From: Candidatus Zhuqueibacterota bacterium
GTDB taxonomy: Bacteria > Zhuqueibacterota > Zhuqueibacteria > Residuimicrobiales > Residuimicrobiaceae
Length of the DNA: 54,560 nt
Assembly (NCBI GenBank): GCA_963169875.1
Contig: CAUJEL010000043.1
Location: 1 to 54,560 of the forward strand
Reading direction: 5' to 3'
Part shown: positions 22,404 through 39,792 of the stretch, in pieces
Numbering within the stretch: position 1 is the stretch's first letter
Layout of the letters: every line of letters starts with the position of its first letter
The notes under the pieces: generated by a model
The model's database searches: none
The model's input: only the letters and a program-made list of their open reading frames with translations
Told to the model about the DNA's origin: nothing
Translations under genes and position numbers: made by a program

Positions 22404-22481
22404 TGCTGCCTCCTGACCTTTGACATTGACGCGAATTATTTTCATTCTCATGAATTTATGATTTCATAACATCAATCATAA

Positions 22482-22510
22482 GCAATTTGCAGAGAATTGC
22501 CGCAATTAAC
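22482..22510. promoter_or_regulatory. Candidate operator, site C, upstream of the TonB receptor
   Basis: Reads AGCAATTTGCAGAG followed by AATTGCCGCAATTAAC. With two one-base gaps it matches site A at 27653-27682 (23 of 29 aligned positions by hand) and also resembles site B. A minus-strand TATGAT hexamer lies next to it (22475-22480). Confidence 0.5.
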
Positions 22511-22533
22511 ACGTTAATAACATTCATGCCGCT

Positions 22534-23274
22534 TCAGGGCAGCGGTACATGCAAATATGTGCACCCTTTGGGCACATTCACAACACGGATGCCATCGACC
22601 TCCCGCTGCTCCAGGCTATCGGGATGTGTATGGCCGAACACGACCATCTTGCAGCCGAGTTCAACCGCCAGTCTGGCGGCTTCGGCAAAGACCTGATCTG
22701 TTGAACGGGCATATTTCATGTCTTCCGCACTGGCTTGCATCTTTCGCCCCGATTCCCAATACTTCGCCCGCGCTTCGTTATAGCGCAAGGTATGACCGTG
22801 CAACAACAGCACCGTGCCTTTGTAGATGGTATGGCGTTCCGTTCCGGCATCGCCAAAGGTATCCATTTCATGATTGCCGCGAACATAATTCCCCCCGGCG
22901 GCCTTTCTGATGACATCGATGAGCTGCCGCGCGCGTTCCGGGTCGGGTGCGTTCTTGAAATCCACGATGTCACCGAGATAAAAAGTGCGTTCTCTCAGGG
23001 ACGGCAAGGCAGGATAAAAATAGTCGATGTTTTCCTGGATGGATTCCTGCATGCCCCGGACCAGGCGATGCCCCCCGTATATATGCGTATCCGCATAGAT
23101 TTTGATGACGGACTCATCCCTGATGACCGTTTCATCCGTGGTGGCTTCCAGGACATCGCAATCGCAGGGCGCTGGCAGCGGCCGGGCGAGCTTTATGGTT
23201 TTGTAGCAGGAATTGGAGAGCGATGCAGCGAGTACCAGAACGAGTATGGGAAGGAATAGTTTTCTGTTTTTCAT
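22534..23274 (-). CDS. Calcineurin-like metallophosphoesterase lipoprotein
   Basis: The 246-residue product has a leader ending LSNSC (Cys23) that predicts a lipoprotein. The dinuclear-metal motifs of calcineurin-like phosphoesterases appear in order: ADTH (Asp62, His64), GDIVD (about 101-105), GNHE (133-136), HGH (159-161) and a late FGHTHPDS. It lies 15 bp after the stop of the first TIM-barrel gene and is the last gene of the GH88 operon. A phosphatase or phosphodiesterase on an exported substrate is likely; the substrate is unknown. Confidence 0.85.
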   Translation of the reverse strand: MKNRKLFLPILVLVLAASLSNSCYKTIKLARPLPAPCDCDVLEATTDETVIRDESVIKIYADTHIYGGHRLVRGMQESIQENIDYFYPALPSLRERTFYLGDIVDFKNAPDPERARQLIDVIRKAAGGNYVRGNHEMDTFGDAGTERHTIYKGTVLLLHGHTLRYNEARAKYWESGRKMQASAEDMKYARSTDQVFAEAARLAVELGCKMVVFGHTHPDSLEQREVDGIRVVNVPKGCTYLHVPLP

Positions 23275-23289
23275 GGTATTTCGTGATGG

Positions 23290-24750
23290 TTAGTTGTCCA
23301 ATTGCCGCAGCGCGTCGCCGGCGCCGCGGAGATGTTCCAGTTTCATTTCAGAATACATGCGCGACAGCACGACGCCGGGCGCGCCGGCCCTGAATGCTGC
23401 CAGCACGGCTTCCTTGACGCTTTCCCGCGATCGGGGTGGATCATTCCCCTGCTCCGGGGAGACATCGATATCGATGCCCGGCCAAATCTGCAGGCTGGTT
23501 CCCTGCGCTTCCTTGACCCAGGCTGAGGATTCCCTGAAGACATAATCCGGAGAAAATCCCCGCGCCGACAGGGAGGCAAAATTACCCTCCTGGTAGCCCA
23601 TGATGTGATAGAGAAATTCGAGCCTTTCATCGCGCGGAATATCGGCCAAGTAGGTGTTGAGAAGGCCGTCGACATAACCGGTGCCGCGGGGACCTGCATC
23701 TGTATGATAGGCGATGATTTTCAGGAAATCGTTATATTTAGCCAGTTCCTGCAGATCCACGACCGCCCGGTAAAAGGGATTGAAAGAGAGGCTGTGGGGA
23801 ATGGCGCTGCCAACGAGGAGTTCGGGCCGTATGTTTTTTGCGGTGTCGTAAACCAGCTTGTAGATTTCGCGCAAGCTGTCGTACCAGAACATATCCCAGG
23901 CCAGTATCTCGGGATAGCGCAAGAGAATCCGCCAGAACGCCGCGTAATAACCCTGCGGAGGCCTGATTTCTGACCGCGCCTGGCGGACGAATTGGCACAG
24001 CGCCTGATATCCGGCGCGCACCCGGTTGGTATCGATACCTGCATTCTTTCCCTTTTCCAGACAGTGGGGACAAAAACAGGGGATTTCTGTCTTCTTTTTA
24101 CCGTCCCAGCGCAGCGCATGCGTCAGAGCCCCCCATCTTTCGGAACGCCACAGCAGCCCGTCTATTTCATAGGAATGAACGCAATCGTTGATCATCGCCG
24201 TAAGGAATGAACGATAATGGGGGTTGTTGAAACAGACCTGATCGAGCACCGCTCCATTCAAATCGACTTCATACATGGATGCGAATGGTGCAATCGAATC
24301 ATCGATCTGATCGGCGACCCAGGCGATGGTTTTCATGCCGCGCTTTTTCGCGGCGGGCAGGACGTCTCCCAGGACATCAAAATCGCCATGATCGGGTGCG
24401 CGCAAAACCTGGGCGTCGTTTTCAAAGAGCGTGCCGCGATAGTACGCCGGATTGATCCTGGCATAATAACCGCCCTGAAATGCAGCTCCTTTTTGCTGCA
24501 GGCCATGGTCCACCGGTGGCCAGGGCCGTCCCGACAAGCCCTGTTTGTAGCTGAAAACCATGGCGAACAAGGTATTGACCGATGCCAGTTCCTGAAGATT
24601 ATCCAAACAGTTTTCAATACCTTCATCGACAAATGAAGGGGCGCCAATCTGCATGCCAACCATTCTTGCAGATTTGGCCCTGGTTCTGGAAGCCATGGTC
24701 ATGCTCATCGCCATGATGCCGGCTGATTTGATAAAGGTGCGTCTGTTCAT
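23290..24750 (-). CDS. Tat-exported TIM-barrel putative glycoside hydrolase, paralogue 1
   Basis: The 486-residue protein opens MNRRTFIKSAG, a twin-arginine signal. It then follows a plan shared with two other genes in the window (32508-34058 and 38022-39530): IGAPSFVDEG, DHGDFDVLGD, FNNPHYRSFL, a CFCPHC cysteine cluster, the RILLRYPEILAWDMF helix and GIDIDVSPEQ near the end. The cysteine cluster and layout recall uncharacterised GH10-like/GHL glycoside-hydrolase TIM barrels. ATG 24750 puts the Arg pair at residues 3-4. It is co-directional with the pectin-lyase-fold gene (43-bp gap) and the phosphoesterase gene. Activity is undemonstrated; it is the most diverged of the three. Confidence 0.7.
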   Translation of the reverse strand: MNRRTFIKSAGIMAMSMTMASRTRAKSARMVGMQIGAPSFVDEGIENCLDNLQELASVNTLFAMVFSYKQGLSGRPWPPVDHGLQQKGAAFQGGYYARINPAYYRGTLFENDAQVLRAPDHGDFDVLGDVLPAAKKRGMKTIAWVADQIDDSIAPFASMYEVDLNGAVLDQVCFNNPHYRSFLTAMINDCVHSYEIDGLLWRSERWGALTHALRWDGKKKTEIPCFCPHCLEKGKNAGIDTNRVRAGYQALCQFVRQARSEIRPPQGYYAAFWRILLRYPEILAWDMFWYDSLREIYKLVYDTAKNIRPELLVGSAIPHSLSFNPFYRAVVDLQELAKYNDFLKIIAYHTDAGPRGTGYVDGLLNTYLADIPRDERLEFLYHIMGYQEGNFASLSARGFSPDYVFRESSAWVKEAQGTSLQIWPGIDIDVSPEQGNDPPRSRESVKEAVLAAFRAGAPGVVLSRMYSEMKLEHLRGAGDALRQLDN

Positions 24751-24793
24751 AAATAGGTCTCTCACATAGTTTCGGAAGGAGCAGAAAATCAGA

Positions 24794-26374
24794 TCAATGA
24801 TTCAAGGCTTGTTGCAGTTGATCATAAACCGTTCCCTGACGCTGCGCCGCGGTCGTCACATTTTCCACCGCCTGCTCGCCGAGCCGGTCTTGCAGCTGCT
24901 GCAAATAGAGACTGCGCGGTGTGACATGCCGGCCATGGGATTCAACATATCCCGGTTCGCGGTCGGGGAAGCGGCCCCGGGTTAATTTGCCGGTGCAGCC
25001 GATGGCATAGTTCTGCCCGGTCGGCGGTTTTTGCACGCAGATGGAATCTGTCTCACAGTTCCAGAATATTTGTTGCGCCCCGGCCCAGCCATGTCCGGTG
25101 CCCCAGTTGCCGCGATCCTGTGCATGGAATCTGCCGCCTTTGAGGTTGTCGAACAGGATCCCTGCGGCCCAGCGCTGGTGCGGACCGGTATCGTTGTAGG
25201 GCTTTTCAGCCAGCATGTCCAGGAATACATTGGGGCCGCACGTGCATGCGCCGGTGGCTGCCATATGCCGGGCATGGTCGCTGTAACAGCGCTGCACCAG
25301 ACAATACTGTCCTTTGACGGGAAACGGATACCTGCGGCTGCCCCTGATTTGGGAAACGGGTTTGAGGAGGGCACAATCCTGTACGGTGATGAAAATGGCG
25401 CCGTCATAGAGATCCACGCCGCGGGCGAAATGGACGATACTGATGTTTCTGACCCAAGCGTTCGCGGCATCATCAACCGTCACGCCGGTCCAGGCGTGCT
25501 CTTCATCTTCGTCTTCTTTGCCTTTGACATAGCTCGAGACGAGGCGGAGATTTTCCAGGCCGCTTTGATTGATACGGCCCTCTTCTTCATAGCGGTAGAT
25601 GTAGCCACCGCCATATTTTTCTTCCATGGCATTGATGACCGGCGCATCCAGCTCCACCCGGTTGCCATGGACCGCCATGATCGTTCTCTCGTAGATGAGA
25701 TCCTTGCTGCCGGGCTGCCACTGTTTGGTGCCTTCGCGTTCGACGATACGGTCCATCTTGAGGTCACGAATCCATTCAATCGTACTTGGCCGGTAGATGA
25801 TAATTTTGTCGCCCTTGTGGAGCGCCGTGCCATTTTCAACCGCGAAACTCATGGTTCCCCAGGGCACATAGGCAGCGGCTATTTTCTGCCGGCTGCCGGC
25901 GATTTCCGTTATTTTTAAGACGCCGCCGAGATGGATCAGCGTTCTTTTCTCCGTTCCCGTCGCATTTATGATCGTGCCATCTGGTCCCTGGCCTTCGCCG
26001 CGGAGGACAACGCCCGAGGCGCCAAGACGCAGCGATCCGGAAACCGCATAGGTTCCTTTGCGCAGCAGCACGGCGCCGCGGAATCCCTGGGAAAGGCTGC
26101 GCCGTGAAACACTGTCGATGGCAGCCTGAATGCGGCCGGTGTCATCCTGAAGTGGATCTGCTGGCTGCAAGATGATGACATCGGGAACATGTGGCAGGGC
26201 TACGCCGCCGCCCATATACCCCGCCCGGGAGAAATCAGGAATGGTGTTGCCGAGGCTGTCGGCGTGCGCCACCAGCTTTCCGTCTTCACCGACGTGGATG
26301 AGGGCACTGCGATTTTCGTCCGCGCAGTGCACAAAGGCGAGAACCAGACCGAATAAACCATACCATATTTTCAT
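24794..26374 (-). CDS. Exported pectin-lyase-fold protein (GH28/pectate-lyase-like)
   Basis: The 526-residue product has a hydrophobic leader (about 1-17) and a Cys at residue 18 that could be lipidated, though FVHC is a poor lipobox. IQAAIDSVSRRSLSQGFRG...LLRKGTYAVSGSLRLGASGVVLRG is the usual opening of GH28/pectate-lyase superfamily beta-helices, given here in pieces. Later repeats include ENLRLVSS and VQDCALLKP. A lyase or hydrolase on uronic-acid-rich polysaccharide fits the neighbouring GH88. The start at 26374 follows GGAGG and overlaps the GH88 stop by 4 nt, so the two are translationally coupled. Confidence 0.8.
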   Translation of the reverse strand: MKIWYGLFGLVLAFVHCADENRSALIHVGEDGKLVAHADSLGNTIPDFSRAGYMGGGVALPHVPDVIILQPADPLQDDTGRIQAAIDSVSRRSLSQGFRGAVLLRKGTYAVSGSLRLGASGVVLRGEGQGPDGTIINATGTEKRTLIHLGGVLKITEIAGSRQKIAAAYVPWGTMSFAVENGTALHKGDKIIIYRPSTIEWIRDLKMDRIVEREGTKQWQPGSKDLIYERTIMAVHGNRVELDAPVINAMEEKYGGGYIYRYEEEGRINQSGLENLRLVSSYVKGKEDEDEEHAWTGVTVDDAANAWVRNISIVHFARGVDLYDGAIFITVQDCALLKPVSQIRGSRRYPFPVKGQYCLVQRCYSDHARHMAATGACTCGPNVFLDMLAEKPYNDTGPHQRWAAGILFDNLKGGRFHAQDRGNWGTGHGWAGAQQIFWNCETDSICVQKPPTGQNYAIGCTGKLTRGRFPDREPGYVESHGRHVTPRSLYLQQLQDRLGEQAVENVTTAAQRQGTVYDQLQQALNH

Positions 26375-27579
26375 TTGTCCTCCGCAGGCGCGGTTAGATT
26401 CACATCCGCTTTGTCCAGTCTCATTTTGCGCAGATTCATTTCCAGGAAATAGTAATCAGCATAGATGATGGGAACGTCCACTTCGCTGTCGCTGGGTTTG
26501 CTTCCTACTGAATGAGACAGAATAAAATAGTTGGCCTCTTTGGCAAGATAATGGTGCGACAGATTCTCGAGGATTTGATTGGCTTTCATTCTGTACAGGC
26601 TGCTGTTGTCAACCGGAAACTGGCACAGCTCAAAAAGAGCGGAACCGATGATGGCAGCGGCGGACACATCCCGGGGTTCCGTGGACTTGTCCGCAATGTC
26701 GAAATCCCAGTAGGGAACGAGGTCGTCAGGGAGGTTGGGGTGATTGAGAATGAACCCGGCGATCTTTTCCGCCTGTCGCAGAAAGAGGGTATCTCCGGTC
26801 TCCCGGTAGCACATGGTGTAGCCATACAGAGCCCAGGCCTGGCCCCGCGCCCAGCACGACTCGTCTGCGAGTCCCTGGTGTGTTTGTTTATTGATGACCG
26901 CGCCGGTTGTGCTGTCATAATTGACCACGTGCCAGGTGCTGTAATCTTTTCTGAAATGATGTTTCATTGTTTGCAGGGCGTGCGTGCGGGCGATGTCATG
27001 GTAAACCGGATCACCGCTGTGACGCGTCGCCCAGAATAACAACTCGAGATTCATCAGATTATCGATGATGACCGGGTATTGCCAAACCTCCTGGTGATGG
27101 TCCCAGGAGCGTATGCAGCCGACCTTCGGATTAAACCGGGTGATGAGTGTTTTGGCGCTTTGGAGAAGGACGGCCTTGTAGCTGCTGTCCCCGGTGAGGC
27201 GATAGCCATTGCCAAAACTGTACAGCATTTTGAATCCCATGTCATGGGTGGAGCCGTTATGCTGCTCCGCTTCGAGATTCAGAGTGAATTTGGCGGCCTG
27301 TTCTTTCCAGACTGATGCGCCGGTGGCTTCGTACATCAACCACAAGCACCCCGGGAAGAAACCGCTGGTCCAGTCCCTGGATTTTACCAGAACCAGTTCA
27401 TCCATTTTTAGCGAGCGCGGATTGTCCCTGGACCCATGAAGCTCGCGGGTCATTGCAGTGAGTCTTTTGCCCGCCAGGGATAGATTGTCTGTGGTGATGG
27501 TAGCGGCATCCTTGTCGCAAGCGCTGATCCAGACAAGCCCAATTAAAAGTGTCATCCATGCTATTGTCGATTTTTTCAT
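26371..27579 (-). CDS. GH88 unsaturated glucuronyl hydrolase lipoprotein
   Basis: Releases the 4,5-unsaturated uronic acid that polysaccharide lyases leave on oligosaccharide ends. The 402-residue protein has a lipobox ending WISAC (Cys21). GH88 landmarks are SGFFPGCLWLMYE (72-84), THDMGF with Asp113, IDNLMNLELLFW with Asp173 and WARGQAWALYG (243-253). Asp113 and Asp173 correspond by order and spacing to the catalytic pair of Bacillus unsaturated glucuronyl hydrolase. It is the first gene of a probable operon GH88, pectin-lyase-fold, TIM barrel, phosphoesterase. Operator-like site A lies 74 bp upstream, shared with the divergent regulator gene. Confidence 0.9.
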   Translation of the reverse strand: MKKSTIAWMTLLIGLVWISACDKDAATITTDNLSLAGKRLTAMTRELHGSRDNPRSLKMDELVLVKSRDWTSGFFPGCLWLMYEATGASVWKEQAAKFTLNLEAEQHNGSTHDMGFKMLYSFGNGYRLTGDSSYKAVLLQSAKTLITRFNPKVGCIRSWDHHQEVWQYPVIIDNLMNLELLFWATRHSGDPVYHDIARTHALQTMKHHFRKDYSTWHVVNYDSTTGAVINKQTHQGLADESCWARGQAWALYGYTMCYRETGDTLFLRQAEKIAGFILNHPNLPDDLVPYWDFDIADKSTEPRDVSAAAIIGSALFELCQFPVDNSSLYRMKANQILENLSHHYLAKEANYFILSHSVGSKPSDSEVDVPIIYADYYFLEMNLRKMRLDKADVNLTAPAEDK

Positions 27580-27652
27580 CCCGCCAACCTGTGAAAAGTG
27601 AATATCGATTCAATTTATACTTGCAAGATAAGGCCTAAAACCGTCGCAAAAT

Positions 27653-27682
27653 AGTAATTGCAGGCAAATAACCGCAATTAGC
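27653..27682. promoter_or_regulatory. Candidate operator, site A, between GH88 operon and regulator
   Basis: The 30-nt sequence reads AGTAATTGCAGGCAA then ATAACCGCAATTAGC. It matches site B at 39728-39757 in 25 of 30 positions without gaps and site C at 22482-22510 with two gaps. On the minus strand two TTGC half-elements lie 10 nt apart in all three. Position between a regulator and a divergent catabolic operon is typical for an operator. Confidence 0.55.
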
Positions 27683-27746
27683 TTTTTTTGGTTGACTTTT
27701 TTGCGAATACAATGTAAGTTACCTTATATCAATTTGAGGAGGTCCA

Positions 27747-28973
27747 TTGACGGAACACATCATAAATGACGAAACAAAACTGCGTATTTTGGAGGGAATA
27801 CTTGCAAGCAGCGAATTCAGCCAGGCGAAAAAGCATCAGGATTTATTGCGCTACCTGGTGGAAGCTTCCATCCGCAGCGAATTTGTCAAGGAATCCAGCA
27901 TCGCTCTGGAAATTTTTGGCAAGGATGCCGCGTTCTCTCCGGCCATAGATTCCAGTGTTCGCGCGTACGTCAGTAATCTGCGCAAAAAACTGGAGCACTA
28001 CTATCTGACGCAGGGCGTCAATGATAAAATAAAGCTGGTACTGCCCAAGGGGCATTACCATGTCGAATTCCGGGAGGCCGGAGAAACCAAACGCACGCAC
28101 GCCAAGAATAATGTCAAATTGCTGCATTCCGTCTATGGGGCGGTTATCGCCCTCCTGCTCATCACGTTGATATTTTCGCAACTGAAAAAAATGTTCGTTC
28201 AGGATACCAGCTATATCCCGAAAGAGGATGCCATCTGGAGCCATTTTTTATCTGATGACAAAAAAACAATGGTGATACTGGGCGATTATTATTTTTTTTC
28301 CATGCCGTTTGATTCCGGACGGCACAGTTACATCCGCGACACCGAAATCAATTCTCACGAAGATCTTGATAACTATTTATCCACCCGACCGGCCCTGGCC
28401 CGGAAAATCAATAAAACCTTTCATACCTATTTCGAAGAACATATCCCCTATTGCCTGTCCTATTTGCTGCCTTTATTTATCAAAAATGACCGCCCGTATG
28501 AACTGAAAATGGCCTCGGAAGTTCAGATGCAGGATCTGCAAAAGTACAATTTTATCTTCATAGGTCCTTATAAGAGTCTCGGCATTTTTAAAACAGTCAC
28601 CCGCAGTTTTGATTTCACCTATGAACAGAAGAAGAGTGCTGTGCTGACTTATGCGCCTCAGGATGGTTCCGAAAAAGTCAGTTATTCGTGGACGACTAAT
28701 CCCGAGACCATGGCCCGAAATGATTATGCCCTCGTAGCCAAGGTCTCCGGGCACAATAATAATTCTTTTCTCTTCTTTTTATCGCAGCACGATTTTGGCA
28801 ATATGGCCACGGTCAAATACTTTGTCAATCCTGCCAATCTGCAGAAGTTCGAAAAATCTCTGAGCAACGACTACTTTCAAGCGCTCTTTGAAGTTAAAGG
28901 CATCATGAGAACTGATTTTGAATTAAAATTACTGCATCTGGAACAAGTCCATTCCATTTTTGTCATCGAGTAA
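27747..28973 (+). CDS. Membrane-bound winged-helix regulator
   Basis: The 408-residue product starts at TTG 27747, four bases after AGGAGG. Residues about 10-112 match the OmpR/CadC-like winged-helix domain known from large regulators of Acidobacteria and related groups: ILASSEFSQAKKHQDLLRY, FGKDAAFSPAIDSSVRAYVS, LRKKLEHYY and VLPKGHYHVEF. One membrane helix follows (about 128-146), then a 260-residue outer domain with no recognised family, presumably the periplasmic sensor. It is divergent from the GH88 operon with site A between them, so control of that operon and of itself is the natural guess. It converges with the enolase-superfamily gene (6-bp gap). Confidence 0.75.
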   Translation: MTEHIINDETKLRILEGILASSEFSQAKKHQDLLRYLVEASIRSEFVKESSIALEIFGKDAAFSPAIDSSVRAYVSNLRKKLEHYYLTQGVNDKIKLVLPKGHYHVEFREAGETKRTHAKNNVKLLHSVYGAVIALLLITLIFSQLKKMFVQDTSYIPKEDAIWSHFLSDDKKTMVILGDYYFFSMPFDSGRHSYIRDTEINSHEDLDNYLSTRPALARKINKTFHTYFEEHIPYCLSYLLPLFIKNDRPYELKMASEVQMQDLQKYNFIFIGPYKSLGIFKTVTRSFDFTYEQKKSAVLTYAPQDGSEKVSYSWTTNPETMARNDYALVAKVSGHNNNSFLFFLSQHDFGNMATVKYFVNPANLQKFEKSLSNDYFQALFEVKGIMRTDFELKLLHLEQVHSIFVIE

Positions 28974-28979
28974 GGTCCA

Positions 28980-30230
28980 TCATTCGCTTTTTTCATAAGT
29001 GGCTGACTCAAGCCAATCCCGATTTATGGTGATACCCCAACCAGGCCCCTCGGGCATTTTTACGCTTCCATCTGTGACCTGCAGCTGTGGCGCATACATC
29101 GCCTTGCTTTCGCGGGCTGTTTCTGTGGGCGCCTCGATCGTGAATTCCATAAATTTTGAGTTGGGAATCGCCGCGAGCAGGTGCAGGGTGAAGACGCTCA
29201 CCAGCGAGATGCCTGAATTATGCGGAACACACAATTTACCGGCCTGATGCGCGAGGCGGGCGACGCGCAGCGCCCGGGTGAATCCTCCCAGGTAGCCGAT
29301 GTCGAATTGGGCGATATCCACCGCATTCATGCAGATCATGCGACGCCACTGCGCCATTTCATTGTCCTGTTCGCCGCCGCCCACAGGCATTTTTAATTGA
29401 TTGGCCACTTCCGCCGTCCACTCCAGTTCCCAGTAGGGGCAGGGCTCTTCAAAAAGAAAAAACTGGTTGTCTTCCAGCATGCGGCCGATTTCGATCGCTC
29501 TGGGTGGCGTATAGCAACTGTTGGCGTCCGCCAGCAGTTCGATCTGGTCCCCCAGCGCCTTGCGAACCGTTGGCACCAGCTTTTCCGTGCGGCCGGGCCA
29601 TTGATCCTGGTCGCGGCCGGCCGCCTTGCCGATTTTCATCTTGAACGCATTGAATCCCTTGCTGTCCCGCAGCGCCGTCATTCGCGCCGCCTCGTCCTCC
29701 GGCGTGATATCCCGGCTCATGCTGGACCCATAGGCGGGGATGGGACGAACACGGCCGCCCAGCAACTCCACGACTGGTTTGTTTTTTATTTTGCCGTACA
29801 AGTCCCAGATGGCTGTGTCGACGCCGGACAGGGCGCGATATATGAACGTGCAGGGGAATTTGCGGTTTGCGAGGATGCACTCGTCATTGAGGTCGTCGAT
29901 ATGCGCCGGATCTTTGCCGAGGAAATGTTTCGCGACTTTACGGTGCAGCATCATCGAAGAAATATCCGCGTCATGAGGTGATATCTGGCCGTAGCCGACA
30001 GAACCGTCATCCGTCTGGATTCTGATAACAGCCAGGCTCTTTTTGGTGAAGGATTCGATTTTTACAATTTTTAAACCCTCGCCGATGATCCTGAATGCTT
30101 CATATGCTTCATCCCTGCCGAAATAGGGATATTTCGATGCAGAAAACGTCTGAGCATGCAGTCTGGTTTGCGCCAGGACGGGCGCAGCCAGGGCCAGCCG
30201 GCAAAAATCGCGTCGATCAAGTTTTATCAT
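28980..30230 (-). CDS. Tat-exported enolase-superfamily (MR/MLE) enzyme
   Basis: Mandelate racemase/muconate-lactonising-type enzyme of 416 residues, probably a sugar-acid dehydratase or epimerase. It begins with a twin-arginine signal (DRRDFCRLALAAP), which is unusual for this family. The active site is intact: Lys197-x-Lys199 in FKMKIG, metal ligands Asp235 (LADAN), Glu261 (EEP) and Glu287 (GGGEQ), and His337 in PHNSG. The KxK plus late His pattern is that of the mandelate racemase subgroup. It is 37 bp downstream of the DUF1537 kinase gene and likely in its operon. The exact substrate cannot be read. Confidence 0.85.
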   Translation of the reverse strand: MIKLDRRDFCRLALAAPVLAQTRLHAQTFSASKYPYFGRDEAYEAFRIIGEGLKIVKIESFTKKSLAVIRIQTDDGSVGYGQISPHDADISSMMLHRKVAKHFLGKDPAHIDDLNDECILANRKFPCTFIYRALSGVDTAIWDLYGKIKNKPVVELLGGRVRPIPAYGSSMSRDITPEDEAARMTALRDSKGFNAFKMKIGKAAGRDQDQWPGRTEKLVPTVRKALGDQIELLADANSCYTPPRAIEIGRMLEDNQFFLFEEPCPYWELEWTAEVANQLKMPVGGGEQDNEMAQWRRMICMNAVDIAQFDIGYLGGFTRALRVARLAHQAGKLCVPHNSGISLVSVFTLHLLAAIPNSKFMEFTIEAPTETARESKAMYAPQLQVTDGSVKMPEGPGWGITINRDWLESATYEKSE

Positions 30231-30267
30231 GGTTACTCCCGATTCTGTTTATGACTCCTCAGCACCT

Positions 30268-31431
30268 TTAACGTGAACCGAATGCGAAAATATTTTCCGG
30301 CCACAGGTAGCTCCCGACTTTTAATGTGATGTAAAGGCCGGGATTCCCGGCGGCTTCGAGGCAAATGACGCCCTGGGCGATTTGTGCGATGGGCGAAAAC
30401 GCGGTGTACCCGGCCTCTCTGAGGATGGCAAAAGCTGTATCGCCGCCCTCGATATACAGATCACCGTCGTCAAGTTGAGGCAGAACCCGTGCGACCGTTT
30501 TTGCCATCGCTGCACAGATGTGTGTTGCAATGCCCGGGATGTGGCTGAGCGGCTGATTGATTTCGAGGATGACGCACCGCGCAGTCCTGAAAAGCTGCTG
30601 AATTTGTTCCGCCCAGTTGGCAATTGCGACCTCAAGTTTATCGTTCGCGTAAAAAACATCACCGGGCATCCCGCACACCTGCGCTCCGTTCGTCACCGCG
30701 GTTTGCAGGGCTGACCGGTCTTTTTTGAAGGCGCTGCCGCAGACTATGAGAACGTTTCCCCGGTTGCGGTCTATTGCAAGAGCAGGGGGGGCGTCTTTGC
30801 ATTTGATTTTCGCATCGATGATCGCGGTGAAGAAATTCGCCGCGCCCGCGGCCAGGACACCCGGCTTCAGCTGCCCGGCCCAGTGTGCCAGGTGTTCAGC
30901 TGTGCAGGCCTCCCCCAGGCTGATCCCTGAGGGGGGCAGCACCGATCCGGCTCGCAGATAGCGGGTGACGACGCCCGCCGCGCTTCCCAACAGCTCCATC
31001 ACAGCAGCCGTTTTTTTAGCATATCCCGGATCGTTGACAAAATCGGTCTCCGTCAGCGGTTTGTCATGGATGTAATAGATGCCGTCGCGAATTGTGCGCG
31101 CCAGCGCGGGATTGGCCGGGACGAGCAGGCAGTTGTCCGCGACGCCTGCCTCGATCATTGCCTGCAGTTCCGCGAGGACATGGCCGCGCAGCACCGAGTC
31201 GGTTTTTTTATAGAGCCATGCGTAATCAAGCGCTTTCAATTCTTGCGCCAGAGAGACGGAGACTGAGTACGCTTGCTGGCGGCTCAGGGACCTGGTGTTG
31301 GTGGCGATGACCACCATATCCGCTGTTGAGGGCATCACGCGCGTGGTGATTTCGACGCGGAGGCCGCAATTAAATCCCAGACCGGCGATTTCCGCGGCGC
31401 CGGTCAAATCATCCGCAACGACCGCGATCAT
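30268..31431 (-). CDS. DUF1537-family tetronate kinase (OtnK/DtnK type)
   Basis: Cytosolic ATP-dependent kinase of four-carbon sugar acids, 387 residues. The family opening VVADDLTGAAEIAG and KKTDSVLRG are visible; the C-terminal nucleotide-binding half carries IEGGDTAF and a late GNPGLYITLKVG. The start ATG 31431 overlaps the upstream PdxA-like stop by 4 nt (ATGA), which overrules a longer reading that begins inside that gene. Pairing with a PdxA2 dehydrogenase is the known arrangement for D-threonate/D-erythronate catabolism: phosphorylation, then oxidation and loss of CO2 to dihydroxyacetone phosphate. Which tetronate is used is not decided. Confidence 0.88.
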   Translation of the reverse strand: MIAVVADDLTGAAEIAGLGFNCGLRVEITTRVMPSTADMVVIATNTRSLSRQQAYSVSVSLAQELKALDYAWLYKKTDSVLRGHVLAELQAMIEAGVADNCLLVPANPALARTIRDGIYYIHDKPLTETDFVNDPGYAKKTAAVMELLGSAAGVVTRYLRAGSVLPPSGISLGEACTAEHLAHWAGQLKPGVLAAGAANFFTAIIDAKIKCKDAPPALAIDRNRGNVLIVCGSAFKKDRSALQTAVTNGAQVCGMPGDVFYANDKLEVAIANWAEQIQQLFRTARCVILEINQPLSHIPGIATHICAAMAKTVARVLPQLDDGDLYIEGGDTAFAILREAGYTAFSPIAQIAQGVICLEAAGNPGLYITLKVGSYLWPENIFAFGSR

Positions 31432-32468
31432 TTTTTTACCGCCTTTGCGTTGGCGAGTTGGGCTGCATATTTGATGGCCAGGTAAAGCGCATCCGCACTG
31501 GCGATGCCCTTTCCCGCAATCTCCAGGGCCGTGCCGTGATCCACGGAGGTGCGGATGATCGGCAATCCCAGCGTGATATTCACACCGCGCACATGCTTCA
31601 TCCTCTGGTTGCGGTGGTCCCACTCAAAACCGAATAACTTGAAGGGGATGTGTCCCTGATCATGATACATGGCCACGACGCCATCGTACATGCCGCCGCG
31701 TGCTTTCGAGAACACGGTGTCCGCGGGAATCGGGCCTTCAACGGCATAGCCCTGCTCCCGTGCTGCTTGCACCGCGGGCACGATTTCGCGGATCTCCTCA
31801 TCGCCAAAGAGGCCGCCATCACCGGCGTGGGGATTCAACCCCGCAACCGCGATGCGCGGATTCGCGATGCCAAACTGGCGGCAGGAGTCAGAAAGTAATC
31901 CGGTCACTTCCAGGATACGCTCTTTTTTCACGGCTTCACAGGCTTGACGCAGGGACACATGGGTGGAAACATGAATCACGCGCAGCCGGCCGTGCACCAG
32001 CAGCATCGCATATTTTCGCGTCTGGGTAAAATGGGCATAAATTTCCGTGTGTCCGGAAAAAACATGCCCGGCAAGATGGATGGCTTCTTTTTGAATGGGC
32101 CCCGTCACGGTCGCGTCGATCTCCCGAGCCAGCGCCAGTTCAATCACCTTCTTGACGGTGGTGAATGCCGCGTCGCCTGCCAGGGCTGAGATCCTGCCGA
32201 TCTCCAGCCTGGCCAGATCGACATGGTGCAAATCGTATACATCGATCGTACCGGGACTAAAGCCTGCGTCAGCTGTCCGGGTGATGGCATGGACGTCGAG
32301 CGCAAAGCCGCTCCGGGATGCTGCATCCCGGATCACCCGGGCGTCGCCGACCAGCAGCGGCCGGCAGAAGCGGTGCAGGTTGTTGTGATTGAAGACCTTG
32401 ACCGCGATTTCCGGGCCAATCCCGGCCGGATCGCCCATGGTGATTCCAATGATCGGCTTTTTTTTCAT
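31428..32468 (-). CDS. pdxA2: PdxA2-type 4-phospho-tetronate dehydrogenase
   Basis: NAD-dependent dehydrogenase of the PdxA family, 346 residues, cytosolic. It has GITMGDPAGIGPEI at the start, and metal-binding histidines in SGHTE, NPHAGDGG and YHDQGHIPFK, followed by SVDHGTA. The ATG at 32468 has GGATGA upstream; a TTG four codons earlier is possible. Coupling to a DUF1537 kinase marks it as the catabolic PdxA2 acting on 4-phospho-D-threonate or -erythronate rather than vitamin B6 biosynthesis. The TIM-barrel paralogue 2 gene lies 39 bp upstream on the same strand. Confidence 0.87.
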   Translation of the reverse strand: MKKKPIIGITMGDPAGIGPEIAVKVFNHNNLHRFCRPLLVGDARVIRDAASRSGFALDVHAITRTADAGFSPGTIDVYDLHHVDLARLEIGRISALAGDAAFTTVKKVIELALAREIDATVTGPIQKEAIHLAGHVFSGHTEIYAHFTQTRKYAMLLVHGRLRVIHVSTHVSLRQACEAVKKERILEVTGLLSDSCRQFGIANPRIAVAGLNPHAGDGGLFGDEEIREIVPAVQAAREQGYAVEGPIPADTVFSKARGGMYDGVVAMYHDQGHIPFKLFGFEWDHRNQRMKHVRGVNITLGLPIIRTSVDHGTALEIAGKGIASADALYLAIKYAAQLANAKAVKK

Positions 32469-32507
32469 CTTGTCATCCAAAATTTACCCGGATTAAATGC
32501 ATCGCGG

Positions 32508-34058
32508 CTATTGGTTGATCCCCAATTCCCGCAGCGCATCTCCAACCCCGCTCATGTTGTCCAGTTTCATCTCCGCATATTTGCGCGAAATGACCAACCC
32601 GTCTGCACCGGCGCGCAAGGCGGCGGCTGTGGCGGCACGAACGCTGGCCCGTGTCCACTGGACGGCTTGCTTGATATCAGCGCCATCTATGATGTCCGAC
32701 TCGACGACCGGTATGTCCACATCGATCCCGGCGAGAATTTTTGATCCAGCCTGACCGCGGCCCTCCACGGCCCGTTTTGATTCGCGATAGACGAAATCCG
32801 GGCTCAAACCGGTCTCGCCGACTTTATCATAGGGCGATTCATTCGGATAACCCAGCACATGATAATGAAACTGCATGAGTTCATCCGCGGGCACATCGCC
32901 GTAAATGGTTTCACTCACGCTCTGGACGTAGCTGGCGAGCCGGGGACCGGCGCAATGGTTGTACAGGGACAGCTTGATGAAATCCGTGTACTGCGCGAGT
33001 TGTGAAATATCCTGCTCGGCGCGGTAGATCGGACTCATGAAGGTGTTGGACCACAGGTGCACACCGAAAAGGCCATCCGCCCTGGCAGCCTTGGTGTGCT
33101 GATAGAGGAGCTTGTAAACCTCACGCTTGCTTTCGTGATAGAGGTGCTCCCATTGCAGCAGTTCCGGATATCTGAGGATCAACCGCCACAACGTGACATA
33201 ATAGCCGTCCACAGGGCGCCTGCGCGCACGCGCGTCTTCTCTGAATTTGCTCAGGGCTTCGAAAGCGGGAACGACCCGGTCCAGGCGGATGCCCATCTCT
33301 TCTGCTTTGGCCTGGCAATGTTCGCAGAAGCAGGTGCGAGTGCCGGGTTCTCCCATGGTGCGGCCGCGCTGACGCGCTCCGAGCATGTTGCTGAACGGTC
33401 CTTGCGTTTCATTGATATAAATGACGCCATCGAGGTCATAGGAATGGAACCAGTCGTCCACCAGACCCTTGAGGAAATTCCTGTAAAAAGGATTGTTGAG
33501 GCAGATCGAACGTCCGCTGCCAGCTGGCTTACCGTTAAAGTCCACTTCGCGCAGTTTATCGATGCCGGGCAGCCTGCTGGAAAAATTATGATGCAACATG
33601 GCAATGACCTTCATCCCGCGGGTACGCGCCTGGGGGATGAGGTCCCCGAGGACGTCAAAGTCCGGGTGATCGGGGGCCTGCGTGTCACGGGGATCGATTC
33701 CGGTGTCGTGATAGTATTGGGGATGGACACGGGCAAAGTTACCGCCATCGACATCCATGGTGCCGTCGGCATTTCCGTGTCCCGGATAGGGTCTGTGGCG
33801 TCCCGCTGTCGTGTTCGAATAGGAGAACACCACCGGGATGATGGCATTGACGCCGCCGCGTTCCTGCAGCAGATCCAGACAGGCAGCCACGCCCTCATCC
33901 ACAAAAGAGACAGCGCCGATCTGTATGCCGACCATTTTCGCCGTTTTGGGGGACGGCATTGCTGCGCCAGGGGCTGAGAGAAAACTTGCGCCCAATGGCA
34001 GGGCCGCCGCCAGTCGCGTACTCGCCTGGATAAAATCTCTACGACTCATCTTGTCCAC
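32508..34058 (-). CDS. Tat-exported TIM-barrel putative glycoside hydrolase, paralogue 2
   Basis: The 516-residue product is best started at GTG 34058, seven bases after AAGGAG, giving (M)DKMSRRDFIQAS, which parallels MDSMSRRDFMQ of paralogue 3; ATG 34049 is the alternative. A twin-arginine signal is followed by the shared plan: IGAVSFVDEG, DHPDFDVLGD, LNNPFYRNFL, YINETQGPFSNM, CFCEHC, LILRYPELLQWEH and AGIDVDIPV. The end (SRKYAEMKLDNMSGVGDALR) is nearly the same in all three copies. It lies upstream of pdxA2 and the kinase, which places it in the sugar-acid locus. Putative catalytic acids cannot be assigned by eye. Confidence 0.72.
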   Translation of the reverse strand: MDKMSRRDFIQASTRLAAALPLGASFLSAPGAAMPSPKTAKMVGIQIGAVSFVDEGVAACLDLLQERGGVNAIIPVVFSYSNTTAGRHRPYPGHGNADGTMDVDGGNFARVHPQYYHDTGIDPRDTQAPDHPDFDVLGDLIPQARTRGMKVIAMLHHNFSSRLPGIDKLREVDFNGKPAGSGRSICLNNPFYRNFLKGLVDDWFHSYDLDGVIYINETQGPFSNMLGARQRGRTMGEPGTRTCFCEHCQAKAEEMGIRLDRVVPAFEALSKFREDARARRRPVDGYYVTLWRLILRYPELLQWEHLYHESKREVYKLLYQHTKAARADGLFGVHLWSNTFMSPIYRAEQDISQLAQYTDFIKLSLYNHCAGPRLASYVQSVSETIYGDVPADELMQFHYHVLGYPNESPYDKVGETGLSPDFVYRESKRAVEGRGQAGSKILAGIDVDIPVVESDIIDGADIKQAVQWTRASVRAATAAALRAGADGLVISRKYAEMKLDNMSGVGDALRELGINQ

Positions 34059-34084
34059 AATAGTTCTCCTTAAAATTTGCACAA

Positions 34085-34113
34085 CCTTGCGAAGGTTTCA
34101 AACCTTCGCAAGG
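34085..34113. repeat. Perfect 29-nt palindrome in the divergent region
   Basis: CCTTGCGAAGGTTT (34085-34098), one central C, and its exact reverse complement (34100-34113). It lies between the start of TIM-barrel paralogue 2 and the divergent DUF6282 gene. It may be a REP-like repeat or an operator; no second copy was noticed in this window. Confidence 0.7.
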
Positions 34114-34203
34114 GTAAACCAAAAGGGTCTGTTGTTTTTCACTTGATATTCAGGGACGTTTCATTTACATTCTGCTCATCATGAAAATCATAAAGGAAAG
34201 TGA

Positions 34204-35079: not shown

Positions 35080-35093
35080 TCCTGGCACTGCGG

Positions 35094-35168
35094 GTCGATG
35101 TGACCCATCGACTGCCCGCCTGGTGATTTCTTGCATAAATCTCATGCAAGCACCCGCTTGCAAGGGTG
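35094..35168. terminator. Cluster of hairpins between convergent genes
   Basis: Three short stem-loops in a row: GTCGATG/CATCGAC (35094-35112, extendable by a GCGGG/CCCGC pair with a bulge), CTTGCAT/ATGCAAG (35130-35150) and CACCC/GGGTG (35151-35168). They fill the gap between convergent stops at 35079 and 35176, where a bidirectional termination zone would be expected, though no long T-runs are present. Confidence 0.45.
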
Positions 35169-35175
35169 CAAAGAA

Positions 35176-36483
35176 TTACCCGCTCACCATTCGCTTGGCC
35201 AGTTCCTCGAGGCGGGGCAGGTTCCCCGCTTCATCGTATGGCAGCTCCATCGGCTGCGACACTATCTTGATGGCGGGATTCTGTCGCAGCTCCGGGAGCA
35301 GATTTTCGCTCACCGCCATGAGCCGCAAATTCATGGTATTCGCAATCCATGCAACGGTCAGATCTTCCGGGTTGTTTCTGCCGACCGTGGGCGCCAGTTT
35401 TTCCAGGCATTCCCGGTCAGTCGGAAAATGGATGGGCATGCGCGTCGAAGCGGTGATGCTCGACGTCAGGCCATTGACGTAGGTGGCTTGCCAGTCCACT
35501 TTGTCGATGAGACGGTCAGCGGCCATGTCCGCGAGCCCCATGCCGAGTGCATTGCCGTCGCTCCATTTGGACAGGTCGCGGATGAATATCCGGTCCACCT
35601 GCGGCGCGTTGGTGTAGCAGTTATAATAGGCCATGGTGCTTCTGTTGACCACTTTGGTATCCATGCCCGTGCCGCTGATTTCCTTGCCGATTTCATCGAG
35701 GATGAGGATGTCGAGCGCGTTCACGGGGATGCGGCCGGCCCAGGATTTGGCCAGCGCCAAAAGTTGTTCCTCCTGCTCCTGCAAATTTTCGATGTGGACC
35801 GCGGTCACCTGCGCGGTACGGTGATTGCCGTCTTCGATGATGGCCAGTCCCCCGACGATGCGGCCCGATTGCGCGATCTGCTGGAACACACTGCGGATGA
35901 CGCGTTCCAGGCCGATGCGATGCCCGAATCCATGGTATTGGCGTGCGCCGGCGAGCTTGCCGAGGCCAATGGCCGTCATTTTGCACAAGCCGCTCTCAAT
36001 TTTGCCATCAAAGTCGGTGTGCCATTTCACCCGGCCGACCAGCATCACCCCCTCACTTTTGAACGCGCTGCGGTCCATGAAGGTTTCGATGCCTTCGGGT
36101 GTGCGGCCCATGGAGACGACCTCGAGCGAACTGATGATCGGACAATTCATGGTTTCCGGATTGATCCCGTAGTGTGCCAGCACGGCGGCCTGGCCTTCTC
36201 CGGTTGCGGCGCCATGACTTCCCATCGCCGGGAAAATAAAAGGTTTGCAGCCTGCGGCCTTCCAATACTCGACAACGGCTTTCACGATCGTCGCTATCCG
36301 GGCAATGCCGCGGCTTCCCACGCCGATGGCGATGCGGGCGCCGGGTTTCATTTTTGCCGCGAAATCAGCTTTTTCCAGTTGTCCGCGTACTTCTTTTGCC
36401 ACATTTTTGAGGCTGCGGTCCGGGAATTCCTGCCTGATCAAACCTATACGGGGTAATTTGATGGGTGCGCCTGAATTGGGCAT
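35176..36483 (-). CDS. LarA-like (DUF2088) nickel-pincer isomerase family protein
   Basis: The 435-residue product resembles the lactate racemase LarA family and its relatives that isomerise 2-hydroxy acids and sugar acids with a nickel-pincer nucleotide. Visible landmarks are GVGSRGIARI, FPAMGSHGAATGEGQ, GRVKWHTDFDGKIESG and an acidic ILDEIGKEISGTGMD. ATG 36483 is chosen because AGGAG lies 6 nt upstream; a longer frame to 36519 has a poor site. No larB/larC/larE cofactor genes are in the window. It lies downstream of the MFS transporter gene. A sugar-acid epimerase role fits the locus but is unproven. Confidence 0.75.
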   Translation of the reverse strand: MPNSGAPIKLPRIGLIRQEFPDRSLKNVAKEVRGQLEKADFAAKMKPGARIAIGVGSRGIARIATIVKAVVEYWKAAGCKPFIFPAMGSHGAATGEGQAAVLAHYGINPETMNCPIISSLEVVSMGRTPEGIETFMDRSAFKSEGVMLVGRVKWHTDFDGKIESGLCKMTAIGLGKLAGARQYHGFGHRIGLERVIRSVFQQIAQSGRIVGGLAIIEDGNHRTAQVTAVHIENLQEQEEQLLALAKSWAGRIPVNALDILILDEIGKEISGTGMDTKVVNRSTMAYYNCYTNAPQVDRIFIRDLSKWSDGNALGMGLADMAADRLIDKVDWQATYVNGLTSSITASTRMPIHFPTDRECLEKLAPTVGRNNPEDLTVAWIANTMNLRLMAVSENLLPELRQNPAIKIVSQPMELPYDEAGNLPRLEELAKRMVSG

Positions 36484-36673
36484 GCGCTGCTCCTGAAACT
36501 GGTTGAATGAACTGCTCATCTATCGCCATTTAAATGCGGGCTGAATCGCTGCGCTGAATTGCGAGGGCCTGTGCCATTGCTGCAATCACGTTGCCCAGGC
36601 ACATGAACGGATGCGCCCCTGTGCGCGGAGTTACAGTTCAGCGCCGCGATTCTTTTTTGTGTGTTCATTTTCA

Positions 36674-37960
36674 TCAACTCGCTGTACTGCTCTCCATAAC
36701 CGCGGCACTGTTTTGCGGCCGGCGAACAAAGAGCCAGACGATGGCCACGGCGATGATGTCGACAAAGGCCATGACTGTGAAGAGGCGGGCATAGTCAGCA
36801 TTCTTGGCATAGATGCCCACATAAATCGTGAAAAAGATCACGCCGAGAAAGCCTATCGATCCGGTCATGCCGTTGGCCGTTGCCACCGTGTGCTTGGGCA
36901 GCAGATCCGCCGGCAGGGTGAGCAGCGTGGCGCTCAGAGCCTGATGGGCGAAATAGCCGATGCAGAAAACGGCTGTGGCGACATAGATCGATGGCGAATT
37001 CAGGACGAAAATAACCGATGGCATCATCAGGCACGGCACGGTGAAAGCGATCTTGCGGGCGGTGAGCAGCGGGATGCCCAGTTTTCTGAAAAAGGGTGAG
37101 AGATAGCCACCGGCGAGGCTGCCGAGCATGGCGGCCACAAACGGCACCCATGCGAACCATCCGATCTGCTTCGGGCTCATGCCGTAGCGAAAAGCCAGGT
37201 AGGTCGGCACCCAGATGGTGAAAAACGACCATGGCATTTCGGTGAAAAATCGCGTGATGGCGATCGCCCAGACATTGCGATCGCGCAGCACAATGCCCCA
37301 GACCCGGCGTTTATCAGCGGATTCCACGCCCTGCAGTTCCTTCTGGCCTTCACGGATATAATCCAGTTCCCGCTGCGAAACATGTGGATGATCTTCGGGC
37401 GCGCGATAAAAACGCAGCCAGGCGACCACCCATACGGCGCCGACCAATCCGGTGAGCGCAAAAGGAAGCTGCCAGCGCCCCTGTTCGCCAATGAGGTATC
37501 CCGTCAGGATCATCGCCAGAGCCCCGCCGATGCCCGCGCCGATGTTGAAAATACCAAAGGCTATGGTGCGTTCGCGCGCCGGAAACCATTCCGAGATGGT
37601 CTTGACCCCGGCCGGGTAGAGCCCGGATTCGCCCACGCCGAGGAGGAAACGAAAAGAGGCGAATGATTTGACGCCGACGCCAAAGATATGCAGAATATTG
37701 GCGACGGACCACCAGGCGACGGCGAGCGCAAAGCCGGCGCGGGTTTTGAGATAATCGATGATCCGTCCGCTGGTCGATTGACCGATGGTATAGGCGAGCA
37801 TGAACGCCGCATAACACCAGGCGAACATCATCTCGTCCAGACCCACTTTTTGTTTCAGCGTCGGCGCCGCCATGGCCATGACATTGCGGTCCATGTGATT
37901 GAGAACCGTGGCGAACATCAACAAAAGCGCCATCTTCCAGCGCACGTCCATCTTTTTCAT
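36674..37960 (-). CDS. MFS transporter, hexuronate/sugar-acid (ACS) type
   Basis: Inner-membrane proton-coupled importer of 428 residues with about twelve hydrophobic segments. The first helix region FATVLNHMDRNVMAMAAP, the loop SGRIIDYLKTRAGF and FLLGVGESGLYPAGVKTISEWFP are typical of the anion:cation symporter branch (ExuT, GudP, DgoT). Likely substrates are hexuronates, aldonates or aldarates. The start at 37960 has GGAG 6 nt upstream. It lies 61 bp downstream of TIM-barrel paralogue 3 and 190 bp upstream of the LarA-like gene on the same strand. Confidence 0.88.
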   Translation of the reverse strand: MKKMDVRWKMALLLMFATVLNHMDRNVMAMAAPTLKQKVGLDEMMFAWCYAAFMLAYTIGQSTSGRIIDYLKTRAGFALAVAWWSVANILHIFGVGVKSFASFRFLLGVGESGLYPAGVKTISEWFPARERTIAFGIFNIGAGIGGALAMILTGYLIGEQGRWQLPFALTGLVGAVWVVAWLRFYRAPEDHPHVSQRELDYIREGQKELQGVESADKRRVWGIVLRDRNVWAIAITRFFTEMPWSFFTIWVPTYLAFRYGMSPKQIGWFAWVPFVAAMLGSLAGGYLSPFFRKLGIPLLTARKIAFTVPCLMMPSVIFVLNSPSIYVATAVFCIGYFAHQALSATLLTLPADLLPKHTVATANGMTGSIGFLGVIFFTIYVGIYAKNADYARLFTVMAFVDIIAVAIVWLFVRRPQNSAAVMESSTAS

Positions 37961-38021
37961 GACAGCTCCAGGTTTACAGCGAAATGGCATATAACGATGA
38001 CTTGTGTGAACACTCTGCGGA

Positions 38022-39530
38022 TTATTCCGCTCTCACCGCATCGCCGATTCCGCTCAGGTTCTCCAGCTTCATTTCCGAATATTTGCGGGAGATGACGATG
38101 CCATCCGCTCCCGCCCGCAATGCTTCTTTGGTGGCTTCGAAAACGCGCTGACGCGTTGTTTTGGCCGCGGCTTCTTCGGTCGCGCCTTCAACGATATCGA
38201 GATCGGAGAGGGGGATGTCCACATCGATGCCGGCGAGAATTTTGGCGCCATCAGCACCCCGGCCATCCAGAGCCCGCTTCACTTCGCGATAGACATAGTC
38301 GGCGCTGAGTCCCGCCTCCGAGACTTGTGGATAGGGCGCCTCGTTGAGATAATTCAACACACGATAGTGGAACTGCGCCATCTCTTCCGACGGCATATCG
38401 CCGTACACGATATCGCCAAAGCTCTGAATGTAACTGGCGAAGCGTGGCCCGCCGCAGTTGTTGTAGAGGGCGATTTTAAGAAAATCGGCGTATTGGGAGA
38501 GCTCGGCAAAATCCTGCTCAGCCCGAAACATGGGATTAAATGAAGCGTTGGTCCATATGTGCAGTCCAAACAGGGCTTCTTTTCGGGCGGCTTTGACATG
38601 GTCGTAGAAGAGTTTGTACACTTCCTTGTAGCTCTCGTGGTAAAAATGTTCCCATTGCAGCAGTTCCGGATAGCGCAGCAGCAGGCGCCAGAAGGAGACA
38701 TAAAAGCCGTCCACCGGACGCTGGCGTGTGCGGCCCGCGACAAATTTTTCCGCCTCTGTGAATGCGGTCTGCAGGCGTTCGATGCTGATGCCCTGCTTTT
38801 TCGCTTTTTCCTTGCAATACTGACAGAAACAGGTACGCGAACCCGGCAATCCGCGGCGGCGGCCGCGGAAACGCGCGCCGATCATGTTGGTCAATGCGCC
38901 CTGGGTTTCATTGACATAGATCAATCCATCGATGTCATAGGAATTGATGTAATCATCCACCAGACCCGTCATGAAATTGCGGTGATAGGGATTGTTGAAA
39001 CAGAGGGTGTCCGCCATTTTGCCGTTGAAATCGTATTCAAAGTATTTTTCGGCATTGGGAAGTTTTTCGTTGAATGCATTCTGGAACAGCCCAATGACTT
39101 TCATGCCGCGTTTGCGGGTGTGGGGGATGAGATCGCGGAGCACATCGAATCCGGGATGGTCGTGGGCTTGTATGATCATCGGGTCCATCAGGATATCCTT
39201 GTAGAAGGCGGGATGAACGGTTGCATAATTTCCGCCCTGGATGCTTGCATCCTCCACATTTTTGCCATGTCCGGGCCAGGGTTTATGGCGCCCCGCGGTG
39301 CCCGTGGAATAGGAAAAGACAGCCGGCATGATGGTGTTCACCGCCGCGCGTTCCTGAAGGATATCGAGGCATGCTTCTACCCCTTCATCCACCAATGAAA
39401 CCGCGCCAAGCTGGATGGCGATCATTTTCGAGGTTGCGGCCCGGGCCGAAAGGATGTTCACACCGAGCGGAATGGCGGCGGCCAATCCGGCGCTCACCTG
39501 CATAAAGTCTCTGCGACTCATCGAATCCAT
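38022..39530 (-). CDS. Tat-exported TIM-barrel putative glycoside hydrolase, paralogue 3
   Basis: The 502-residue product starts at ATG 39530, seven bases after GAGGAG, and opens MDSMSRRDFMQVSAGLAAA, a twin-arginine signal. It is close to paralogue 2 along its whole length: LGAVSLVDEG, DHPGFDVLRD, FNNPYHRNFM, YVNETQGALTNM, CFCQYC, LLRYPELLQWEHFYHES, AGIDVDIPL and the shared end. Upstream are a promoter (39700-39728) and operator-like site B abutting its -35 element. It is probably co-transcribed with the sugar-acid MFS transporter. No characterised homologue could be named with certainty. Confidence 0.72.
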   Translation of the reverse strand: MDSMSRRDFMQVSAGLAAAIPLGVNILSARAATSKMIAIQLGAVSLVDEGVEACLDILQERAAVNTIMPAVFSYSTGTAGRHKPWPGHGKNVEDASIQGGNYATVHPAFYKDILMDPMIIQAHDHPGFDVLRDLIPHTRKRGMKVIGLFQNAFNEKLPNAEKYFEYDFNGKMADTLCFNNPYHRNFMTGLVDDYINSYDIDGLIYVNETQGALTNMIGARFRGRRRGLPGSRTCFCQYCKEKAKKQGISIERLQTAFTEAEKFVAGRTRQRPVDGFYVSFWRLLLRYPELLQWEHFYHESYKEVYKLFYDHVKAARKEALFGLHIWTNASFNPMFRAEQDFAELSQYADFLKIALYNNCGGPRFASYIQSFGDIVYGDMPSEEMAQFHYRVLNYLNEAPYPQVSEAGLSADYVYREVKRALDGRGADGAKILAGIDVDIPLSDLDIVEGATEEAAAKTTRQRVFEATKEALRAGADGIVISRKYSEMKLENLSGIGDAVRAE

Positions 39531-39699
39531 GCATGATCTCCTCAAGTTTGCGAAAAAGGTTCTATCATGGCCTGCCAGGCGCCGGGTCTGCAAGCCGCCA
39601 TGATGCCGGGCGATCCGCAGACCGGCGGGTTGCTGCGGTCGTGTCACCACCGCAGCCCGCCTGGCTGGCGCAGGATATCATATTTTCAATATTGATAAC

Positions 39700-39728
39700 A
39701 GTATAAGATAACGGGGCGACTTTTTCCA
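39700..39728 (-). promoter_or_regulatory. Sigma-70-like promoter of the paralogue 3 / MFS unit
   Basis: On the minus strand: TGGAAA (4 of 6 match), 17-nt spacer, TATACT (5 of 6). It points to the ATG at 39530. Site B abuts the -35 element on its upstream side, the usual place for an activator. Confidence 0.45.
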
Positions 39729-39757
39729 GTAATTACAGGCAAATTGCGGCAAATAGC
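39728..39757. promoter_or_regulatory. Candidate operator, site B
   Basis: AGTAATTACAGGCAA followed by ATTGCGGCAAATAGC; 25 of 30 bases equal site A in the same orientation. It lies in the 262-bp gap between the alginate-lyase-family stop and TIM-barrel paralogue 3. Confidence 0.55.
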
Positions 39758-39792
39758 GTGTGAATAACAAAGATCAGGACGGAGGTTTTGCA

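Follow-up and report, generated by a model that had tools for sequence, protein, structure and literature searches.

Three intergenic sites (A, B and C) were found to share a tandem array of the hexamer GYAAWT with an exact 10-bp period. They lie in a 54,560-nucleotide stretch (called the window here) of a Candidatus Zhuqueibacterota genome. With good confidence, the arrays are assigned as binding sites of the membrane regulator encoded from position 27747, through which genes for glycan uptake and breakdown would be activated. The features are collected in Table 1.

Table 1. Features at the locus, in window coordinates; -10 elements and the promoter-like pair are putative.
Feature	Position	Strand	Remark
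TonB-dependent receptor (CarboxypepD_reg + Plug + barrel)	19497-22403	-	Downstream of A
Putative -10 TAAATT	22453-22458	-	23 bp from array A, towards TonB gene; weak
Site A: GCAATTTGCA / GAGAATTGCC / GCAATTAACAC / GTTAATAACA	22482-22522	+	Between metallophosphatase stop and TonB-receptor start
GH88 operon	22534-27579	-	Downstream of B
Metallophosphatase	22534-23274	-	GH88 operon member
TIM1	23290-24765	-	GH88 operon member
DUF4955-like	24794-26374	-	GH88 operon member
GH88	26371-27579	-	GH88 operon member
Putative -10 TATCTT	27625-27630	-	23 bp from array B, towards GH88 operon; weak
Site B: GTAATTGCAG / GCAAATAACC / GCAATTAGCT	27654-27683	+	Three units
Regulator promoter-like pair TTGACT-17-TAAGTT	27692-27720	+	Sequence reading
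Regulator, 408 aa	27747-28973	+	Predicted winged helix ~8-110, membrane helix ~125-147, C-terminal alpha/beta domain 165-408
TIM3 + MFS transporter	36674-39536	-	Downstream of C; TIM3 start re-read to ~39536
Putative -10 TATACT	39700-39705	-	23 bp from array C, towards TIM3; weak
Site C: GTAATTACAG / GCAAATTGCG / GCAAATAGCGT / GTGAATAACA	39729-39769	+	Four units, last step 11 bp

A sequence-only reading of this DNA had described a shared 30-bp sequence at three places. The sites are real and lie where they had been placed, all on the plus strand, but the repeated unit is the hexamer in tandem, not a 30-bp block. The agreement at 25 of 30 ungapped positions that had been given for A and B belongs to B and C; A agrees with B or C at 19 of 29. 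Array A has four units, of which the second is degenerate (GAGAAT), and both A and C carry a further unit after a step of 11 bp (GTTAATAAC at 22513-22521 and GTGAATAAC at 39760-39768), outside the coordinates first given. GTKAATAAC occurs only twice in the whole window on both strands (0.44 expected), as these two fourth units, which match a regulator-family consensus derived almost wholly from other genomes. Array A is the weakest of the three on its own strand, and its three-hexamer core is better read on the opposite strand because the junctions are near-palindromic. No similarity was found in the flanks of A, B and C beyond the extra units. A lookalike at 36556-36590 had rightly been left out of the earlier count (six mismatches), and no array turned up in the further intergenic gaps of the locus that were checked (best, 41127, with three mismatches).

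Gene layout agrees with the earlier placement of the sites before the TonB receptor, before the GH88 operon and its divergent regulator, and before TIM-barrel gene 3 (TIM3) and the MFS transporter. The TonB-receptor start was re-read to 22403, after an AGGAGG site. Site B separates the GH88 operon (minus strand) from the divergent regulator gene (plus strand), and site C lies between the stop of a PF05426 lyase and TIM3.

The 27747 product is, by predicted topology, a single-pass membrane regulator of CadC/ToxR layout. Its AlphaFold model (pLDDT 91) contains a winged helix made of helices 28-42, 49-57 and 70-88 (alpha1-alpha2-alpha3) and strands 95-98 and 107-110 (a C-terminal beta-hairpin wing). 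The N-terminal beta sheet that precedes alpha1 in OmpR-type domains was absent from the model, in which residues 8-19 are helical and the first strand is 95-98. A hydrophobic stretch (~125-147) lies inside a modelled helix (113-150) and is followed by a folded domain (165-408). The nearest solved folds to residues 9-110 were PhoP, ArlR, RpaA and SaeR at Z ~7, where a Z below 8 alone is not decisive; for the C-terminal part, resemblance was to BcsB at Z 12 and to the N-terminal domain of GH67 alpha-glucuronidases at Z 10.6. The match to PF00486 was weak (E 0.0055, 17.2 bits against a gathering score of 26.2) and recurred, also weakly, in 11 of 13 family members. At usual thresholds no Pfam or NCBIfam match to the 408 residues was obtained, C-terminal domain included; none to histidine kinase or receiver domains was seen (E 0.001 / 0.01), and a PDB sequence search gave spurious matches only.

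The direction of control was considered from the promoters. The good -35/-10 pair that had been reported to adjoin B is present 12 bp past the last GYAAWT hexamer of that array (27674-27679), and faces the regulator gene. On the side of the target genes, candidate -10 elements share a 23-bp offset from the arrays (p ~0.04, a weak result) and the -35 boxes are poor (TTATGA, TATTTT and TGGAAA), so that activation is favoured. Site B is best read as the regulator's own operator, with A placing the TonB receptor, and C the TIM3-MFS unit, under its control; A and C are most likely activator sites. An alternative, which we judge unlikely, is that the same regulator acts on the same arrays as a repressor, bound when substrate is missing and released or rearranged by the signal. 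Protein on B could block the nearby promoter of the regulator itself, and arrays at a regulator's own divergent promoter often indicate autoregulation. Against repression, the target arrays stand upstream of candidate -10 elements with poor -35 boxes, which is the usual layout for an activator, although the -10 calls are weak.

In the activator mechanism that we propose, the winged-helix domain would lie in the cytoplasm, anchored by the one membrane helix, with the C-terminal domain facing the periplasm. With one direct repeat per helical turn, several subunits would bind in a head-to-tail row, in the manner of PhoB, PhoP and ToxR. Site B would serve the regulator's divergent promoter together with the GH88 operon, A the TonB receptor and C the TIM3-MFS unit. 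The signal would be periplasmic, probably a product of the degradation of a uronate-containing glycan, and would promote assembly of the regulator on the arrays. RNA polymerase would then be recruited to the promoters whose -35 boxes are poor, and expression of the uptake and breakdown genes would rise in concert. A uronate-rich glycan is suggested by the neighbouring genes (GH88, PF05426 lyase, TonB receptor and, at locus L114, glucuronate isomerase).

Other genes of the window were also annotated. The three TIM-barrel paralogues (23290-24765, 32508-34082 and 38022-39536) are 39-59% identical, gave sub-threshold matches only to GHL6/GHL10, and possibly form a new glycosidase group. A nickel-pincer-cofactor isomerase of group 22 (35176-36519) adjoins the MFS transporter. 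Genes for a mandelate-racemase-type dehydratase, an SBD_N/NBD_C kinase and a PdxA-like protein stand in a row at 28980-32480, a set known from the breakdown of four-carbon acid sugars. Three large plus-strand genes at 41360-53177 form an anti-phage-like cluster, with a DruE/DrmA-like helicase carrying an MZB domain, a DrmD/DpdE-like SNF2 protein and a DrmMI-like methyltransferase.

Conservation was examined at orthologous loci. The closest homologues of the regulator (G061 of KSB1, 55% identical, and G017, 47%) are both divergent from a TonB receptor. In each, the best match in the 38-kb neighbourhood lies in the regulator/TonB gap on the regulator's strand (GCAATTGCCC GTAAATAACG GCAATCAACG in G061; GCAAATACAT GTAGTTAACC GCAATTTGCA in G017). 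One-mismatch matches are sparse in these genomes (8 in 10.3 Mb and 4 in 5.3 Mb, respectively), so that for gaps this large the expected numbers are ~5e-4 and 3e-4. Two Bacteroidetes orthologues (46-48%) have arrays of GTTAWTAAC type instead; at the locus of one of them (L114) one array occupies the regulator/TonB gap and a near-identical one precedes a gene for glucuronate isomerase. No array was found within 7 kb of the regulator at L115, a Neomarinimicrobiota orthologue that is the sixth member of the clade and has the same helix. The earlier expectation that related genomes would keep the site upstream of orthologous genes was borne out in part. It held at the regulator/TonB gap of the two closest orthologues, but for the A and C promoters no conserved counterpart was recovered: GH88 homologues in other genomes did not have the site, and no TIM3 orthologue was present in 193 relatives. 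The genome of the window (G000) encodes a second regulator of the family (L112, contig C72, ~4720-4760), which has a different array of its own (GTTTTTACCGTTAATTAACTGTTTTTAAC) and is divergent from a TonB receptor (45% identical).

Relatives of the regulator were found in KSB1, Calditrichota, Neomarinimicrobiota (Fidelibacterota), Ignavibacteria and Bacteroidota; no papers on this family were found in the literature searched. When 72 family upstream regions were scanned for periodicity without any preset pattern, a peak appeared at 10-11 bp with an echo at 22; this is the cleaner test because some sequences had been seen before the pair pattern was chosen. AAC(N1-2)GT pairs at 10-11 bp were present in 41 of 126 deduplicated upstream regions, compared with 0/130 in-gene and 1/118 far-upstream regions. 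The fitted family unit was G-T-N-A-A-W-A-A-C-N, and 42 of 126 members scored above the best shuffled score under this model, which was fitted on the same 126 sequences. Arrays were not clear in many members, cultured Bacteroidota ones (Reichenbachiella, Aquimarina, Flammeovirga) included, and a TonB receptor divergent from the regulator was common but not universal (44/124 in this search). Second array copies were rejected as a family rule, as they were clear only in the window, at L114 and at L082, where the copy is near a partial regulator copy.

Changes in the recognition helix tend to be accompanied by changes in the operator word. The regulator of the window has the helix SSVRAYVSN and the word GCAAWT, and the R-S-H-T-Y type goes with GTGAAAAAC. 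R-S-H and R-T-H helices accompany GTGAA arrays in 10/14 members vs 5/41, counts that ignore shared descent. A Val73Ala change as sole cause of the shift from GTTAA to GCAAWT was rejected: GTTAWTAAC arrays are indeed found with the two close Val73 orthologues, but the distant Ala73 member L190 has GTAAATAAC, and residue 73 alone is therefore not decisive.

Rarity was measured with the pattern GYWAWTN4GYAAWTN4GYAAWT. It was made from A-C, so that its fit to them is circular and the informative part is the scarcity of other matches. Four sites in the 5.0-Mb genome fitted it perfectly, namely B, C, one on contig C139 and, when read on the minus strand, A; one other site had a single mismatch. Spacing controls with periods of 9 and 13 gave no perfect and one one-mismatch match each. 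No perfect match was found in twelve other genomes (~65 Mb) or in 200 locally shuffled windows. A motif frequent across the genome, which would have counted against the sequence-only reading, was thus not what was found. Nor was enrichment seen at other carbohydrate genes of the genome, as that reading had anticipated, and the regulon therefore looks local to this locus. The fourth perfect match (G000:C139:34985-35010, equal to L111 9986-10011) has a rarA-like gene on one side and, on the other, the gene for a TetR-like regulator of an efflux operon, all names read from sequence. This position does not fit a sugar regulon, and the match may be due to chance or be a real extra target.

This match at an unrelated place would suit binding of the arrays by another, unlinked regulator. 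We regard that as improbable, as the word stands beside orthologous regulators elsewhere and its letters change with the recognition helix of the family. Chance likeness between AT-rich intergenic stretches, or a short repeat element scattered through the genome, would suit the composition and position of the sites and is very improbable, given the empty shuffled and spacing controls, dissimilar flanks, four genome copies only (against a dispersed repeat) and the contrary orthologue and family tests. The earlier proposal, that the operator serves the whole locus and that the 27747 product is its regulator, is supported by the genome-wide rarity and by the array beside the two closest orthologues, and this product is very probably the protein that reads A, B and C.

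A wider proposal is held tentatively, as plausible with the balance somewhat against it. A widespread family of single-pass membrane regulators would control TonB-receptor glycan loci through tandem 10-11 bp operators, with letters predictable from the recognition helix and paralogues in one cell keeping to their own locus, and the BcsB/GH67-like sensor domain would sense periplasmic glycan fragments. Little is known of how glycan use is regulated outside Bacteroides, and most members of these phyla have not been cultured. If an operator can be recognised from its spacing and its word tracks the helix, sequence alone would be enough to match regulators to loci; such a word also offers a direct test of site choice by membrane-anchored winged-helix proteins.

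Hybrid two-component and SusR-type regulators of Bacteroidota polysaccharide-utilisation loci span the membrane and are encoded beside a TonB/SusC-type receptor and glycan enzymes. The 27747 regulator resembles them in spanning the membrane beside such genes, and differs in having no histidine kinase or receiver match and an OmpR-like DNA-binding domain. Response regulators (OmpR/PhoB) have a receiver domain and answer to a kinase, whereas the 27747 product is a one-component membrane regulator. OmpR/PhoB-type operators are direct repeats of 10-11 bp, a period shared by A, B, C and the family arrays, where binding is predicted. Head-to-tail binding to direct repeats is known for OmpR-type domains (PMC4832192, PMC7496328). 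The direct repeats of PhoP of M. tuberculosis consist of a 7-bp motif and a 4-bp spacer (11 bp), a layout that resembles AACnGTT + 4 bp in the regulator-family arrays; PhoP binds them head to tail, also as trimers and tetramers (PMC4832192). For ToxR of Vibrio cholerae the direct repeats are AT-rich (TNAAA-N5-TNAAT) and recur every 10 bp (PMC7496328). The predicted cytoplasmic winged helix, single membrane helix and periplasmic C-terminal domain are shared with ToxR; the C-terminal domain of our regulator is unrelated, and its linkage to TonB and glycan genes is different. CadC of Escherichia coli, which has the same domain order, places an OmpR-like winged helix on AT-rich DNA at the promoter it activates (PMC5430869). 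A four-stranded sheet has been described for CadC (PMC5430869), whereas in the DNA-binding domain modelled here an alpha helix comes first. The sites of CadC are head-to-head T-T-A-x4-T pairs, unlike the tandem direct repeats found here, and the sensor domain also differs. What is new here is the tandem architecture, its spread through a regulator family without a name, and the relation between helix and operator.
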